Of a DNA stretch of 17,220 bases, positions 5,905 to 10,436 are shown piece by piece. Where the stretch lies: assembly GCA_903938955.1 (NCBI GenBank), contig CAJAFJ010000551.1, forward strand, positions 1-17,220, in the 5' to 3' direction. The position numbers were made by a program, and so were the translations under genes. Numbering within the stretch: position 1 is the first letter of the stretch; each line of letters starts with the position of its first letter. This stretch comes from an uncultured beta proteobacterium (GTDB lineage: Bacteria; Pseudomonadota; Gammaproteobacteria; Burkholderiales; Burkholderiaceae). Below the pieces are notes generated by a model. That model was not told where the DNA came from, did not search any database, and saw only the letters and a program-made list of their open reading frames with translations.

Positions 5905-5924
5905 GCCCGAGCGCTGTGGGCTTA
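5902..5924. terminator. Inverted repeat carrying both convergent stop codons
   Basis: TAAGCCC (5902-5908) and GGGCTTA (5918-5924) are perfect 7-bp arms around a 9-base loop. The TAA of the SBP gene lies in the left arm, and the TAA of the minus-strand zinc-finger gene is the right arm read in reverse. It could end transcription in both directions, but neither side has a T-run, so a canonical intrinsic terminator is not shown. Confidence 0.4.
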
Positions 5925-6974
5925 TGGCGCGGGTGCCAGGCTGTCGCAATCGGCACCACCGGTGCCCCGGACTTGCAGGGCCATCGATTGGTTTTCAGCC
6001 AGGCCGCTCCACGCCTGCTCGCTCAGGCCGCATTGCCAGGATTTACCTTGGAGGGAGCGCAGCGTGACGCGGTAAGTCTCACTCCGCGTGCCCAGGCGCT
6101 GGGCGCCCAGGGTGTTGCCTTGTACCAAAGCGTTTGCCAGCACCGGATGAGGCCAAGTGGGTGCCAACCGGGCATCGCCCGCCAAGTCGTCGGTTCGCAA
6201 GATGTGCCAGCGGTTGATGAGGTAGCTGCATTGGGCATCAAACACCGGCTCCTGTCGGTAACTGGGCGTGCACTCGCGGTGCTTGGTGAAGGTGCCGTCG
6301 CCCATGTCGTTGCGCGTGTTGACGCACACTTCGCCGGTCTGGATCTGGCGGGTGCTGCGCTGTGCCTGGGTACTGCGGACCTGGTAGGCGCCAGCGGGCG
6401 TCGCATCGCACCAGTCGGTGCTTTTAACGGCAGTGAAGTGCTCTACCGCCACGGAGCGGCTCCAGCTTTTCTCCACCAGTTGCACGCGTTCGCCATGCAG
6501 GCTGAACAACTGAATGACAAACTGGATCGCCAGATAAGCACAGCCCACCGCCACCACGCCGAGGATCGCCATGAACCACTTGAAGCCCGTCGGCAGACCG
6601 GGCGTGTTGGCTACCGGGGCGGTCGGTGGTCGTGGTGGCGTTGCCAGGGCGGACGCCAGCGGTGTTGGCGCAGTGGCTTGAGTGGCGGTGTCGATCACCC
6701 TCGCGACGTTTTTGGCGCCCTCTTTGGGGCCACCGCAATTGATGCAAAAAGCCGCAGCCGCCGAGTTGGGTGATTCGCAATACGTGCAGGCCCAGTCCAC
6801 GCCGACAAAGCGGTGTCCTTTGGCTTCGACCTCCTGGTCTGGTTCAGGGAAATAACGCTGTGTGGGGTCTTGGGCCGCACCGCACATGGGGCAATGTCGC
6901 TGGCTTTTGGCGAGCAGTTCATGCGTGCCGCAGGGCGCGCAATTCCATAACATTTCGAAAAATTGATCGGCCAT
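5922..6974 (-). CDS. Membrane protein with two N-terminal zinc fingers, one of RanBP2 type; function unknown
   Basis: A 350-residue protein that I do not recognise by name. Residues 10-31 form a first finger, W-x-C-x2-C-x12-C-x2-C (Cys12, 15, 28, 31). Residues 61-80 form a second, W-x-C-x2-C-x3-N-x6-C-x2-C (Trp61, Cys63, 66, Asn70, Cys77, 80), an exact match to the RanBP2-type consensus. A Pro/Ala/Thr-rich linker (about 96-128) leads to one membrane helix (about 133-157). The remaining ~190 residues are probably periplasmic and contain six cysteines (near WCD, EVCVN, RECTP, AQCSY, WQCGL, ADCDS), enough for three disulfides. The positive-inside rule puts the fingers in the cytoplasm. Fingers of this type bind RNA, ubiquitin or proteins in eukaryotes; the bacterial role is unknown. 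It is monocistronic and convergent with the SBP gene. The start gives MADQFF and is preceded by a long gene-free stretch. Confidence 0.8.
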   Translation of the reverse strand: MADQFFEMLWNCAPCGTHELLAKSQRHCPMCGAAQDPTQRYFPEPDQEVEAKGHRFVGVDWACTYCESPNSAAAAFCINCGGPKEGAKNVARVIDTATQATAPTPLASALATPPRPPTAPVANTPGLPTGFKWFMAILGVVAVGCAYLAIQFVIQLFSLHGERVQLVEKSWSRSVAVEHFTAVKSTDWCDATPAGAYQVRSTQAQRSTRQIQTGEVCVNTRNDMGDGTFTKHRECTPSYRQEPVFDAQCSYLINRWHILRTDDLAGDARLAPTWPHPVLANALVQGNTLGAQRLGTRSETYRVTLRSLQGKSWQCGLSEQAWSGLAENQSMALQVRGTGGADCDSLAPAP

Positions 6975-7108
6975 GGCGGCAGGTGTCCGGGGTTTGAGGG
7001 GCCGTGCCCCGGTGGTTTTTTTGCGCTTATTTTATGAAAAACAAGCTGTTGTTCTGGCCCGGGCAGTGGCAATTTTGGCAATGCGGTAATTCATGCGGTA
7101 CTCTTTCG
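6975..7108. other. Gene-free stretch upstream of the zinc-finger gene
   Basis: No credible gene is seen here. It should contain the minus-strand promoter of the zinc-finger gene; the AT-rich part 7018-7045 is the best place. CCGGGG (6987-6992) and CCCCGG (7007-7012) can pair and are followed by TGG and seven Ts (7016-7022), a terminator-like layout on the plus strand although no plus-strand gene needs ending there. ATGCGGTA occurs twice, at 7081-7088 and 7093-7100, a short direct repeat with a 12-base period. Confidence 0.4.
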
Positions 7109-7371
7109 TAAATCAAGCCCGCGGCGGTTTGTGCGGGCCGCTGACATTGGGGCAGATGCTTCCGCGAATGTCCTCCGCCCTTCGGGCTCCTCCTTGATTT
7201 CGCTGCACCATCTTCCCCAATGCCAGCGTCTGCCAGCCGTGTTAGCCCGCGGTAGGGCAAGATATCCGGACTCAGGACGGCGTGGCATTCAGTGCCGTGA
7301 GGTTCAGGAGGAGGCCAAAGGCCGGGGGACACGAACAGAGCTGAATGCCACGTCGCCCTGGGTCCTGTTTT
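7109..7371 (+). other. Double-hairpin structured element of unknown type (possible RNA or mobile-element remnant)
   Basis: Non-coding by eye, but rich in long inverted repeats. Hairpin A: 7139-7158 pairs with 7209-7228 (18 of 20 positions), then GCGAA/TTCGC (7164-7168, 7199-7203), then an apical GCCC-TTC-GGGC (7177-7187). Hairpin B: 7268-7292 pairs with 7341-7365 (25 positions, one A/C mismatch and two G-T pairs), then CGTG/CACG (7296-7299, 7330-7333), then an apical GGCC-AAA-GGCC (7313-7323). The two share one plan: a long basal stem, a short middle stem and a 4-bp apical stem with a triloop. CTCCTCCT (7187-7194) in A is complementary to AGGAGGAG (7306-7313) in B. Smaller stems are 7117-7122/7133-7138 and 7245-7248/7255-7258. 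TGTTTTAAA follows B, which would suit an RNA 3' end on the plus strand. The strand and nature of the element are not proven. Confidence 0.5.
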
Positions 7372-7387
7372 AAAGCGTGACGGTTCA

Positions 7388-7419
7388 TCTCACTAATAAG
7401 TCGCTATTTATTAGTGAGA
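7388..7419. promoter_or_regulatory. Perfect palindrome upstream of putA, candidate operator
   Basis: TCTCACTAATAA (7388-7399) and TTATTAGTGAGA (7408-7419) are exact inverted 12-bp arms around GTCGCTAT. It is AT-rich inside a GC-rich genome and centred about 75 bp before the putA ATG. The size and symmetry suit a dimeric HTH regulator. Because this PutA lacks its own DNA-binding domain, an external regulator (Lrp/AsnC or another family) is expected. No T-tract follows, so a terminator is less likely. A further palindrome, TTCATGAA, lies at about 7433-7440. Confidence 0.55.
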
Positions 7420-7465
7420 AATGAATGTAGTTTTCATGAAGAATTGCATTTTTGCCAGCACCAAC

Positions 7466-7470
7466 GGAGA
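7466..7470 (+). promoter_or_regulatory. Ribosome binding site fixing the putA start at ATG 7479
   Basis: GGAGA ends 8 bases before ATG 7479. An in-frame TTG at 7452 would add nine residues, but it has no Shine-Dalgarno sequence and would place this good one inside the coding region. Confidence 0.7.
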
Positions 7471-7478
7471 TTCGCCCC

Positions 7479-10436
7479 ATGCGCCTGCCTCAACCCTACC
7501 GCCCCGAAGCCGACATCGTGGCCCATCGCCTGAGCGCCTTGGGCAGTGCGCTGGACTGGGCTGCAGCCGCCAAAGCCGCCACGCCGTGGGTGCAGGCCGT
7601 GCGGCACAACCCGCCGCCGTTCTGGGCCATGGAAAGCCTGCTCAAGGAATACCCGATCAGCAGCGCCGAGGGCCTGGCCCTGATGCGTCTGGCCGAAGCC
7701 CTGCTGCGCGTGCCCGATGCTGAAACCGCGGTGGCGCTCACCGCCGACCAGCTGGGGCGCGCCGACTTTGAAGCCGCCGGCGACAAAACGCTGGCCCGCC
7801 TGAGCAGCACCGCCATTGCCATGAGCAAGAAGTTTCTGCCCGACAGCGAAGCACCCACCGGCCTGTTCGCCAAGCTGGGCGCACGCTCGGTGGTGGCGGC
7901 CACGCTGCGTGCCGTGCAGTTGCTGGGCCGCCAGTTTGTGCTGGGCCAGACCATCGGTGATGCCATGAACGAGGCCAATTCGGCCCGCCGCAAAATCCAC
8001 GGCTTACGCTACAGCTACGACATGTTGGGCGAGGGCGCCCGCACCGAGACCGATGCGCTCCAGTACCTTGCCAGTTACCAGCACGCGATTCAATCCATCG
8101 CCACGCAGGCGCAAGCTACCGGGGCGTGTGAGCACAACGATGGCATTTCCATCAAGCTCAGCGCCTTGCACCCGCGCTACGAAGACGGGCAAAGGGCGCG
8201 CGTCATGGCCGAGCTGGTGCCGCGCGTCTGGGGCTTGTGCGAGCAGGCGGCGCGGGCCAACATCAACCTCACCATCGACGCCGAAGAGGTCGACCGGCTG
8301 GAGTTGTCGCTCGACGTGCTGGAGCTGCTGATCGCCCGCGTGGCGCAGCATTACCCGCAGTGGACCGGCTTTGGCCTGGCAATGCAGGCCTACCAAACGC
8401 GGGCGCTGGAGCTGGTGGAACACGTCATCGCGCTGGCTCGCCGCTACAAGATTCGCCTGATGTGCCGTCTGGTCAAAGGCGCATATTGGGATGCCGAAAT
8501 CAAGCGCGCGCAAGAGATGGGTCTGCCCGCCTACCCGGTGTTCACGCACAAGCACCACACCGACGTGTCCTATCTGGCCTGCGCCCAAGCGCTGCTGGCC
8601 GCACCCGATGCGCTCTACCCGCAATTTGCCACGCACAACGCCGCCACCATCGCCGCCATTTTGCAGATGGGCGCCAAGAGCGGCGCGCCATTTGAGTTGC
8701 AGCGCCTGCACGGCATGGGCGAGGGCGTGTACCGCGAGGTGCTGAAAAACCCGCTGATCGCCTGCCGCGTCTACGCCCCGGTCGGCGCGCACAAAGATTT
8801 GCTCGCCTACCTGGTGCGCCGCCTGCTGGAAAACGGCGCCAACTCCTCGTTTGTGCACCAGCTGGCCGACGAGTCGGTCGGCATGGCGGACCTGCTGATT
8901 TCGCCGCTGCGGCTGGAGCCCGAGTCGTCGCTGCCGTTGCCGCTGGCACTTTTTGGCGCAGCGCGCCCCAACAGCGCCGGGCTGGATTTGACGGTCGACG
9001 CCATGCGCGCCCCGCTGCTGGCTGCCTACCCAAGCGTGGCAATCCCGGTGGTGCCGGTGTTTGATGCCACCTTGGCGAGCCACGCCGTGACGGTCAGCGC
9101 TGAGTGTTACCTACAGTGGCGCAAGACCGAGGTGGCCGAGCGCGCCGCCATCCTGCGCCGCGCCGCCGACGAGTTGCAACACCAGTTGCCCAGGTTCTGT
9201 GCGCTGCTGGTCAAAGAGGCTTTCAAGACCTGGGGTGATGCGGTGAGCGAAGTGCGCGAGGCGATCGACTTTATGCGCTACTACGCCCTTGAGGCCGAGC
9301 GCATCATGGCGCCCATCGCCATGCCCGGTCCGACTGGCGAGAGCAACGAGTTGCGTCTGATCGCGCGCGGCCCGTGGGTCTGTATCAGCCCATGGAACTT
9401 TCCGCTGGCTATTCTTCTGGGCCAGGTGGCGGCGGCGCTGGCTACCGGCAACACCGTGCTGGCCAAACCGGCCGAACAAACCCCCGGCGTCGCGCTGGCG
9501 GCGGTCAAATTACTGCACGCGGCGGGCGTGCCCGAAGGCGCTTTGCAACTGCTGCACGGCCCGGGCGACACCGTGGGTGCCGCGCTGGTGGCCGCGCCTG
9601 GCGTGGCGGGGGTGGTGTTCACCGGCTCGACGCAAGTCGCCAAGATCATCAACCGCGCACTGGCGGCCAAAGACGGCGCCATCGTGCCGCTGATAGCCGA
9701 GACCGGTGGCATCAACGCCATGCTGGTCGATAGCACCGCCTTGCCCGAACAGGTGAGCGATGCCGTCATGCAAAGCGCTTTCAGAAGCGCCGGCCAGCGC
9801 TGCTCGGCGCTACGCCTGTTGTGTGTGCATGACACCATTGCCGATCACGTAATTGAGATGATCCAGGGCGCGGCCCAAGAACTGGTGGTGGGCGACCCGG
9901 CGGATCTGGCCACGGATGTCGGGCCGGTGATTGACCGCGACGCTTTCGACGGCATTCTGCAGCATCTGTCGCGCCTGAATAGGCACGCCAAACCGTTGCT
10001 GGCGCCCTTTGTCGCGACAGGTCTTGGCGGCGGCCTGGCCAACCTGCTGGCCCCGCAAGCGTTTGAAGTCAATACCATCGCCGACCTGCAGCAGGAAATC
10101 TTCGGCCCGGTGCTGCACATCGTGCGCTGGTCGGGTGATCCGCAAGCGGTCATCGACCAGATCAACGCGCTGGGCTACGGCCTAACCATCGGTATTCAGA
10201 CCCGCATCGACAGCCGCGCCCAGGCGCTGGCCCGCGCCGCGCATGTCGGCAATGTCTACATCAACCGCAACCAGATCGGTGCCGTGGTTGGCGTGCAGCC
10301 CTTCGGCGGCGAAGGCCTGAGCGGCACCGGCCCCAAAGCCGGCGGCCCGCACTATTTGTACCGCTTCTGCGCGGAACAGACCATCACGGTGAACACGACA
10401 GCGGCGGGCGGCAATGCGGCCTTGCTGGCTGGGTAA
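7479..10436 (+). CDS. putA: Bifunctional proline dehydrogenase / P5C dehydrogenase PutA (short type, no DNA-binding domain)
   Basis: PutA oxidises proline to P5C with FAD and then to glutamate with NAD+, channelling the intermediate. It is a peripheral membrane enzyme. At 985 residues it matches the minimal bifunctional type (~1000) rather than the trifunctional type (~1300), and there is no N-terminal ribbon-helix-helix. The proline dehydrogenase barrel (about 175-465) shows RYSYDMLGEGARTE, ISIKLSALHPRYE, RLVKGAYWDAEIKRAQ and LENGANSSFV. The aldehyde dehydrogenase half (about 560-980) shows GPWVCISPWNFPLAI, VFTGST, the catalytic-region Glu741 in AETGG, nucleophile Cys775 in SAGQRCS, and EIFGPVLHIVRW. 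The C-terminal PFGGEGLSGTGPKAGGPHYLYRF is typical. Without its own repressor domain, regulation probably acts through the upstream palindrome. Large antisense open frames over this gene are codon-bias shadows. Confidence 0.97.
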   Translation: MRLPQPYRPEADIVAHRLSALGSALDWAAAAKAATPWVQAVRHNPPPFWAMESLLKEYPISSAEGLALMRLAEALLRVPDAETAVALTADQLGRADFEAAGDKTLARLSSTAIAMSKKFLPDSEAPTGLFAKLGARSVVAATLRAVQLLGRQFVLGQTIGDAMNEANSARRKIHGLRYSYDMLGEGARTETDALQYLASYQHAIQSIATQAQATGACEHNDGISIKLSALHPRYEDGQRARVMAELVPRVWGLCEQAARANINLTIDAEEVDRLELSLDVLELLIARVAQHYPQWTGFGLAMQAYQTRALELVEHVIALARRYKIRLMCRLVKGAYWDAEIKRAQEMGLPAYPVFTHKHHTDVSYLACAQALLAAPDALYPQFATHNAATIAAILQMGAKSGAPFELQRLHGMGEGVYREVLKNPLIACRVYAPVGAHKDLLAYLVRRLLENGANSSFVHQLADESVGMADLLISPLRLEPESSLPLPLALFGAARPNSAGLDLTVDAMRAPLLAAYPSVAIPVVPVFDATLASHAVTVSAECYLQWRKTEVAERAAILRRAADELQHQLPRFCALLVKEAFKTWGDAVSEVREAIDFMRYYALEAERIMAPIAMPGPTGESNELRLIARGPWVCISPWNFPLAILLGQVAAALATGNTVLAKPAEQTPGVALAAVKLLHAAGVPEGALQLLHGPGDTVGAALVAAPGVAGVVFTGSTQVAKIINRALAAKDGAIVPLIAETGGINAMLVDSTALPEQVSDAVMQSAFRSAGQRCSALRLLCVHDTIADHVIEMIQGAAQELVVGDPADLATDVGPVIDRDAFDGILQHLSRLNRHAKPLLAPFVATGLGGGLANLLAPQAFEVNTIADLQQEIFGPVLHIVRWSGDPQAVIDQINALGYGLTIGIQTRIDSRAQALARAAHVGNVYINRNQIGAVVGVQPFGGEGLSGTGPKAGGPHYLYRFCAEQTITVNTTAAGGNAALLAG

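Follow-up and report, generated by a model that had tools for sequence, protein, structure and literature searches.

An inverted pair of hairpins upstream of putA belongs to a dispersed and probably mobile repeat family in Comamonadaceae

Two long hairpins upstream of putA, hereafter A and B, are a mirror-image (inverted) pair of one repeated element of ~100 nt. They lie in a stretch of 17,220 nucleotides from an uncultured beta proteobacterium, which at its full length is called the window. The internal loop of the element is conserved and purine-rich (AAGGAGGAG / CGGGGGACA), its apical stem is short, and the sequence of its ~24-bp basal stem is variable while the pairing is retained. It looks like an undescribed repeat family of REP/MITE/RPE-like short mobile palindromes. 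Positions 7133-7367 are probably a divergent doublet of a non-autonomous mobile palindrome family of Comamonadaceae, the type of enzyme being left aside, and with greater confidence we regard the element as such as a dispersed mobile palindrome. Its movement by a single-strand (HUH-like) route is put forward only tentatively.

The inverted pair and its conserved core

Both hairpins had been described in an earlier note on this DNA, and they proved to be real. Folding of 7109-7380 gave z = -4.56 for the plus strand and z = -3.68 for the minus strand, with 0 of 200 shuffles equally stable in either case. A scan of the entire window for 24-bp arms (at most 5 mismatches, loop of 38-62 nt) returned 18 overlapping matches, every one on A or B, and the same scan gave no matches in four of four Markov-shuffled windows; A and B are the sole hairpins of their kind within the window. 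Their parts are listed here with the scores of the covariance model R1, described below.

7133..7234, minus strand (core strand): hairpin A, one copy of the element (model R1, 86.7 bits, E 1.2e-19)
7137..7160, minus strand: 3' arm of the A basal stem, partner 7207-7230 (model columns 75-98)
7169..7197, minus strand: conserved core of A, TCAAGGAGGAG - apical stem - CGGAGGACA (core pattern and model R1)
7207..7230, minus strand: 5' arm of the A basal stem (model columns 5-28)
7235..7265, no strand: spacer separating hairpins A and B, its sequence not conserved across doublets
7266..7367, plus strand (core strand): hairpin B, second copy of the element (model R1, 81.8 bits, E 1.9e-18)
7270..7293, plus strand: 5' arm of the B basal stem, partner 7340-7363 (model R1)
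7303..7331, plus strand: conserved core of B, TTCAGGAGGAG - apical stem - CGGGGGACA (core pattern and model R1)
7340..7363, plus strand: 3' arm of the B basal stem (model R1)

The core was recognised from three Variovorax records, which match over the tip of hairpin A in a distant BLAST of 7100-7450 against plasmids, and from putA-centred loci of relatives. A on the minus strand and B on the plus strand share it as AGGAGGAG - short stem - GGRGGACA, within differing stems. The 8-nt complementarity between CTCCTCCT in A and AGGAGGAG in B, to which attention had been drawn before, is genuine and is a consequence of the inverted arrangement of A and B, which carry the same conserved core. The stretches between the cores of doublets number 43 distinct sequences, most of them 109-122 nt long (111 nt in the window doublet).

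Across 133 distinct copies the basal stem keeps a single register, with positions -13 to -34 paired in 68-90% of the copies compared with 27-68% expected from column composition. Many stem columns carry less than 0.3 bit, and a few (-19, -22 and -23) reach ~1 bit. Compensatory changes among homologues, on which the earlier note had made its reading depend, were found in A3, a gapless alignment of 19 copies from outside the window with a 26-nt core. Selection of the A3 copies required good pairing and an identity below 80% in one arm, which makes the alignment lean towards structure; 30 of its 33 pairs show changes on both sides, and its covariation score is 0.83, against 0.10-0.16 with slid partners. 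The middle stem is the weakest part of A3, with 70.5% of cells paired. Model R1 was built on this alignment, which includes neither window hairpin, and it detects both window copies with the E-values listed above. In a permissive R1 search of four genomes, which scored 150 first-look candidates per genome and may miss decayed copies, 99 of the 101 matches reached at least 54 bits and the remaining two scored 31.4 and 17.5.

The window doublet is flanked by a minus-strand gene (5922-6974), for which Pfam gave sub-threshold zinc-ribbon matches only, and by putA on the plus strand. Rfam returned 0 matches above the gathering score over the window, and over 7100-7480 two sub-threshold matches only (E 0.7 and 4.1). 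As for the T-tract that had been noted after B, a TTTT is present and is followed by AAA, and a terminator scan of 6950-7500 called a single site at 6998-7010 and none at the doublet.

A role of the doublet for putA was considered and rejected. In the putA loci of 71 relatives, some of which have little upstream sequence, no R1 match adjoins the start of putA, and so the insertion in the window is no evidence for such a role; the five R1 matches in these loci lie inside putA (three) or 3.3 kb upstream of it (two). Also upstream of putA, positions 7388-7419 of the window hold a perfect 12-bp inverted repeat (TCTCACTAATAA-8-TTATTAGTGAGA), possibly a putA operator, and TTCACTAAAAATTCAGTGAA stands at about the same distance from putA in L004, the locus whose PutA is closest to that of the window.

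Distribution and genomic placement

The pattern AGGAGGAGN{4,20}GGRGGACA was present in 21 of the 27 genomes or records behind the Variovorax and putA loci, with a highest count of 52 in one genome; the reversed-pattern control gave 0. Among 200 genomes sampled from the family of strain OS-4, 79 contain the core pattern. The reversed pattern had 5 matches in 5 genomes of the same sample, and a few single matches may be due to chance. Of 300 genomes sampled from the order, 7 contain a stricter core pattern, and at least 5 of them recur in the family sample. The element is likely restricted to the family (Comamonadaceae), the order sample being one that does not name families.

R1 matches occurred in 19 of 24 genomes at 2 to 59 per genome, and there was no match in G004, G007, G008, G011 and G022. 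Copy numbers in this large group of environmental bacteria thus reach about 60 per genome. Four of six Polaromonas-titled genomes have zero R1 matches, and the other two have 2 and 4. The genome of L004 (G001) has 25 R1 matches and only 3 pattern matches, which points to a variant core. In L271 (genome G105, positions 617-1211), four consecutive R1 matches (-,+,-,+) with plus cores 336 bp apart form tandem doublets. Two viral-filed contigs carry genuine copies according to R1 (L331 684-785 and L338 5465-5576), which may reflect a prophage, a misfiled contig or true carriage by phage. A phage origin was rejected: at least 120 pattern stretches were seen in viral contigs, 80 were kept as loci, and 2 of the 80 were confirmed by R1.

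Placement was scored on the calls of a crude, home-made codon-usage gene finder, at loci that were chosen by pattern and are partly orthologous. Copies occur singly or as divergent doublets, with two further groupings (one self-overlap and one same-direction pair). Gaps between tandem genes host 25 of the 36 divergent doublets; six lie between convergent genes, two between divergent genes (the window doublet is one of them) and two within genes, and one is unclear. Doublets are often near a stop codon. Solos, which are copies with no second exact-pattern match within 300 bp and some of which have a divergent partner seen by R1 only, number 82, including 22 in-gene sense and 11 in-gene antisense copies. 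Between tandem genes, 14 solos are sense and 16 antisense. Replication-strand bias was rejected, none being visible by eye in 18 OS-4 solos with the origin assumed at coordinate 1.

In-frame sense copies in OS-4 reside in PutA, MutL, HrpA (two copies), a MIP-family channel, FdhD and a Mur ligase, which we take to be Mpl, and translate as ..AQVKEEPA(K/Q)RAGDTEQ..; antisense copies were found in the genes of a DNA polymerase III alpha-type protein and a kinase-domain protein. According to Pfam, the copies in MutL, the channel and the polymerase and the first one in HrpA fall outside or between matched domains, those in PutA and the Mur ligase and the second in HrpA lie within a matched domain, and in FdhD the copy is just past the first of two matched stretches. 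When reading frames were counted, with gene classes slightly different from those of the placement census, 22 of 26 sense in-gene copies were in one common frame (14 of 16 after thinning), and 8 of 10 antisense in-gene copies shared a frame. Conservation of a protein reading frame instead of the stems had been named as a result that would speak against a structured element; the common frame of the sense in-gene copies is there, and the stems are kept too. In-frame insertion reaches genes such as mutL and the Mur ligase gene, and annotators should read peptides such as AQVKEEPAKRAGDTEQ in host proteins as translated repeats.

PutA is interrupted at an identical spot, in opposite orientation, in L033 and L072. 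Near residue 880, PutA is length-variable among relatives: L018 has a hairpin there (7479-7730), and the same region of PutA in L006 (about 7530-7790) has a different repeat-like peptide, ..KPWIPAQGRDDKYLYRDD...

Foldable strand, spread and change in place

A folded RNA or single DNA strand tolerates G.U or G.T better than A.C. Read on the core strand, the stem mismatches of 156 copies (22 pairs, -13 to -34) amount to 324 G.T/T.G and 49 A.C/C.A, and after thinning to 83 copies to 168:35. The ratio of G.T to A.C never exceeded 1.82 in 1000 trials with partners shuffled between copies, and was about 0.9 to 1.7 with slid partners. It is alike whether copies run antisense (108:18) or sense (144:24) relative to the gene that hosts or adjoins them. 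What is kept foldable thus seems to be the element's own core strand, not host mRNA; the bias fits RNA as well as single-stranded DNA, and may also reflect a strand-biased mutational process. The earlier proposal of an undescribed structured RNA survives to the extent that one strand looks kept foldable. Because ~24 bp per copy vary yet stay paired and the mismatch bias indicates the foldable strand, the family is a natural experiment in which the maintenance of bacterial palindromes, whether by selection, transposition or template switching, becomes directly testable.

At nine Variovorax sites the two hairpins of the doublets have median identities of 93% and 89%, each over 36 pairs, and the flanks, with a median identity of 38%, are unrelated. 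Such sharing of stems is as expected of recent spread. The doublet ends at these sites are similar, not identical, namely TTCAGGGCGCG and, at the opposite end, CGCGCCCTGAA. One Variovorax site holds a complete doublet in V. paradoxus SPNA7 and an internally deleted one in 2u118; in Variovorax sp. PDNC026 a single outer arm is present there, and SRS16 shows no recognisable trace. Gain and loss of the doublet fit these four strains alike. The dispersed copies, the near-identical Variovorax doublets with common ends and the full, partial and absent states bear out the suggestion of a folded, MITE-like repeat.

Change in place was followed in orthologous copies whose two flanks both match, in G006, G010, G013 (OS-4) and G018, through 44 same-orientation comparisons that are non-independent and from which flanks more than 97% identical and within-locus pairs were excluded. 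The 880 stem cells comprise 646 unchanged and paired, 8 unchanged and unpaired, 83 changed on both sides and 75 on one side that are pairable after the change, and 47 changed on one side and 21 on both that are not. Pairing at orthologous sites is thus kept, for which a dead insertion has no need, so that selection in place or correction between arms must be added to any account by mobility. Stems differ wholesale beside similar flanks in L198/L209 (flanks 80%) and L212/L179 (flanks 96%). In L222, the second of two Mur ligase gene copies is flanked, by eye, by an imperfect coding direct repeat of ~33 bp.

The core has opposite orientation in orthologs at four solo sites (8 solo comparisons; 12 of the 20 comparison rows classed as inverted are the two halves of doublets, not solos).

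Inverted-core site 1: L186 vs L202/L168, aligned
Inverted-core site 2: L188 vs L216/L171, aligned
Inverted-core site 3: L189/L181 vs L204, aligned
Inverted-core site 4: L193/L167 vs L219

In the alignments of the first three sites, the loop is flipped and the arms stay put.

Explanations and relation to known repeats

RAYT/HUH transposases move REP hairpins. In a similar manner, an enzyme encoded elsewhere would recognise the conserved internal loop of the element on a folded single strand (the core strand), and the same enzyme would move the element, as such transposases do with REP hairpins. The two arms may also correct one another, and template switching or recombination between arms could flip the loop.

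It is unlikely, albeit worth stating, that the copies are live strand-specific folding devices, maintained in place regardless of the direction of host transcription. The same modest weight is given to the idea that for such devices the sequence of the basal stem is nearly unconstrained and only pairing, one-strand wobble tolerance and the purine loop matter, the loop being flippable in situ. If true, folding devices would represent a self-maintaining palindrome of a new class, served by an RNA- or ssDNA-binding partner, and one that also donates short peptides to proteins.

We give less credence to a host-functional site, at which copies would act in place as strand-specific folded RNA or ssDNA with the fold directly selected; a nucleoid, replication or RNA-binding protein would be an example of a partner, at the same low probability. 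Such a site would explain the G.T bias, the rarity of low-scoring copies (99 of 101 matches at or above 54 bits, with 150 first-look candidates per genome) and the pairing kept at orthologous sites, where 83 of 880 cells changed on both sides are paired versus 47 + 21 not pairable. It is at odds with the about even orientation of solos relative to tandem genes (14 sense, 16 antisense), with a putA site that is not common to the relatives searched, with the absence of the pattern from about 60% of the sampled family genomes and with the partial deletion tolerated at the Variovorax site.

Mutation alone is improbable. Template switching that copies arm onto arm and inverts the loop would need no folding selection, and would produce both the loop inversions between arms that remain in place and the wholesale stem replacement beside conserved flanks (L198/L209, L212/L179). 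However, a strand-blind DNA process predicts A.C to equal G.T on the core strand, where 324:49 was observed, and the conserved unpaired core is left unexplained. An intergenic element that terminates transcription in both directions or stabilises 3' ends is very unlikely: the window doublet stands between divergent genes with no terminator call, and many copies are in-gene, even though 25 + 6 of the 36 doublets lie between tandem or convergent genes, often near a stop codon.

There is a slender chance that the element is the published Beta-proteobacterial repeat element BRE, the nearest printed likeness found (PMC3110155). According to that paper, BRE is ~90 bp long, G+C-rich, betaproteobacterial and tandem, and is conserved along its length with >70% identity across the class; its copies are most numerous in Polaromonas JS666 (29) and Bordetella, and some lie in coding sequences. 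The two are alike in being short, G+C-rich, dispersed, present in Comamonadaceae and sometimes located in coding sequences. They are set apart by this description of BRE (tandem, class-wide, rich in Polaromonas JS666), not by sequence: R1 finds zero matches in 4 of 6 Polaromonas-titled genomes, and against conservation across the class, no more than 7 of the 300 order genomes contain the stricter core pattern here. The resemblance to a bridge RNA of an IS110-type element, raised earlier on the appearance of stems with internal loops, gained no support and is highly improbable: in A and B a single module is present twice in inverted orientation, where a bridge RNA would be one molecule with two guide loops; the copies, single and paired, are dispersed among varied genes, and there is no Rfam match.

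The preferred reading, a dispersed mobile palindrome, has its counterparts among known repeats. REPs are dispersed palindromes that occur as singles and spaced inverted doublets, mostly intergenic, with conserved unpaired bases in the hairpin. The element resembles REP, BIME and REPIN repeats in its dispersed hairpins, singles, inverted doublets with a spacer and conserved unpaired bases; it differs from REPs and REPINs in that its stem sequence is not conserved and no adjoining Y1_Tnp gene was found (29 loci). The hairpin is also ~100 nt long with its own conserved core, whereas the REP palindromes described in PMC3733652 are 20-40 bp long with a GTAG or CGTC tag. The Comamonadaceae genera looked for in two REP papers (PMC3733652, PMC12306157) do not occur in their main text, and no printed description of the element was found among openly licensed PMC papers.

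Like MITEs, the element is short, non-coding and dispersed, and its ends TTCAGGGCGCG and CGCGCCCTGAA are similar and inverted (in Variovorax only, nine sites). No autonomous partner with the Variovorax ends was seen among the results of an exact end-pattern search, and no regular target duplication was established, the one imperfect repeat of ~33 bp (L222) being seen by eye. Rickettsia palindromic elements (RPE; ~150 bp, ten families) are, as outlined in PMC10969869, palindromic repeats of Rickettsia that have entered a variety of unrelated genes without disturbing their reading frame. In-frame insertion into unrelated genes is likewise met in OS-4, but the element is set apart by description, being found in Comamonadaceae, also as intergenic doublets, and with one common core.

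Two enzymes were rejected as the mobiliser. Y1_Tnp, the mark of a RAYT, is present in 23 of 24 genomes including five hairpin-free ones and is missing from the hairpin-rich G003, and R1 gave 0 matches at 29 Y1_Tnp loci (about 1.5 kb on each side). An inverted repeat of another type (GGGGTCAGGTCTTGAATT..., L146 3114-3242) stands beside a Y1_Tnp gene and is perhaps the REP of that RAYT. As for a reverse transcriptase, RVT_1 occurs in 12 of 24 genomes and is absent from the hairpin-rich G003, G013, G016 and G020. Copying of stems from the target was also rejected, as type-1 stems share a loose consensus across sites (by eye).

A search for a longer element by the exact Variovorax end pattern gave 19 matches in 4 genomes or records and 1 control match, with no facing pair resembling such an element; the closest facing matches are 216 bp apart. 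A longer element between hairpins 1-2 kb apart was rejected as well: the intervals in L114, L115 and L253 contain ordinary-looking genes, among them presumably patatin-like and HipA-like ones and an hrpA whose name is supported by Pfam. At 2271-4429 of L253 (genome G017), two carboxylase-like genes enclose a doublet, the HipA-like gene and one more hairpin.
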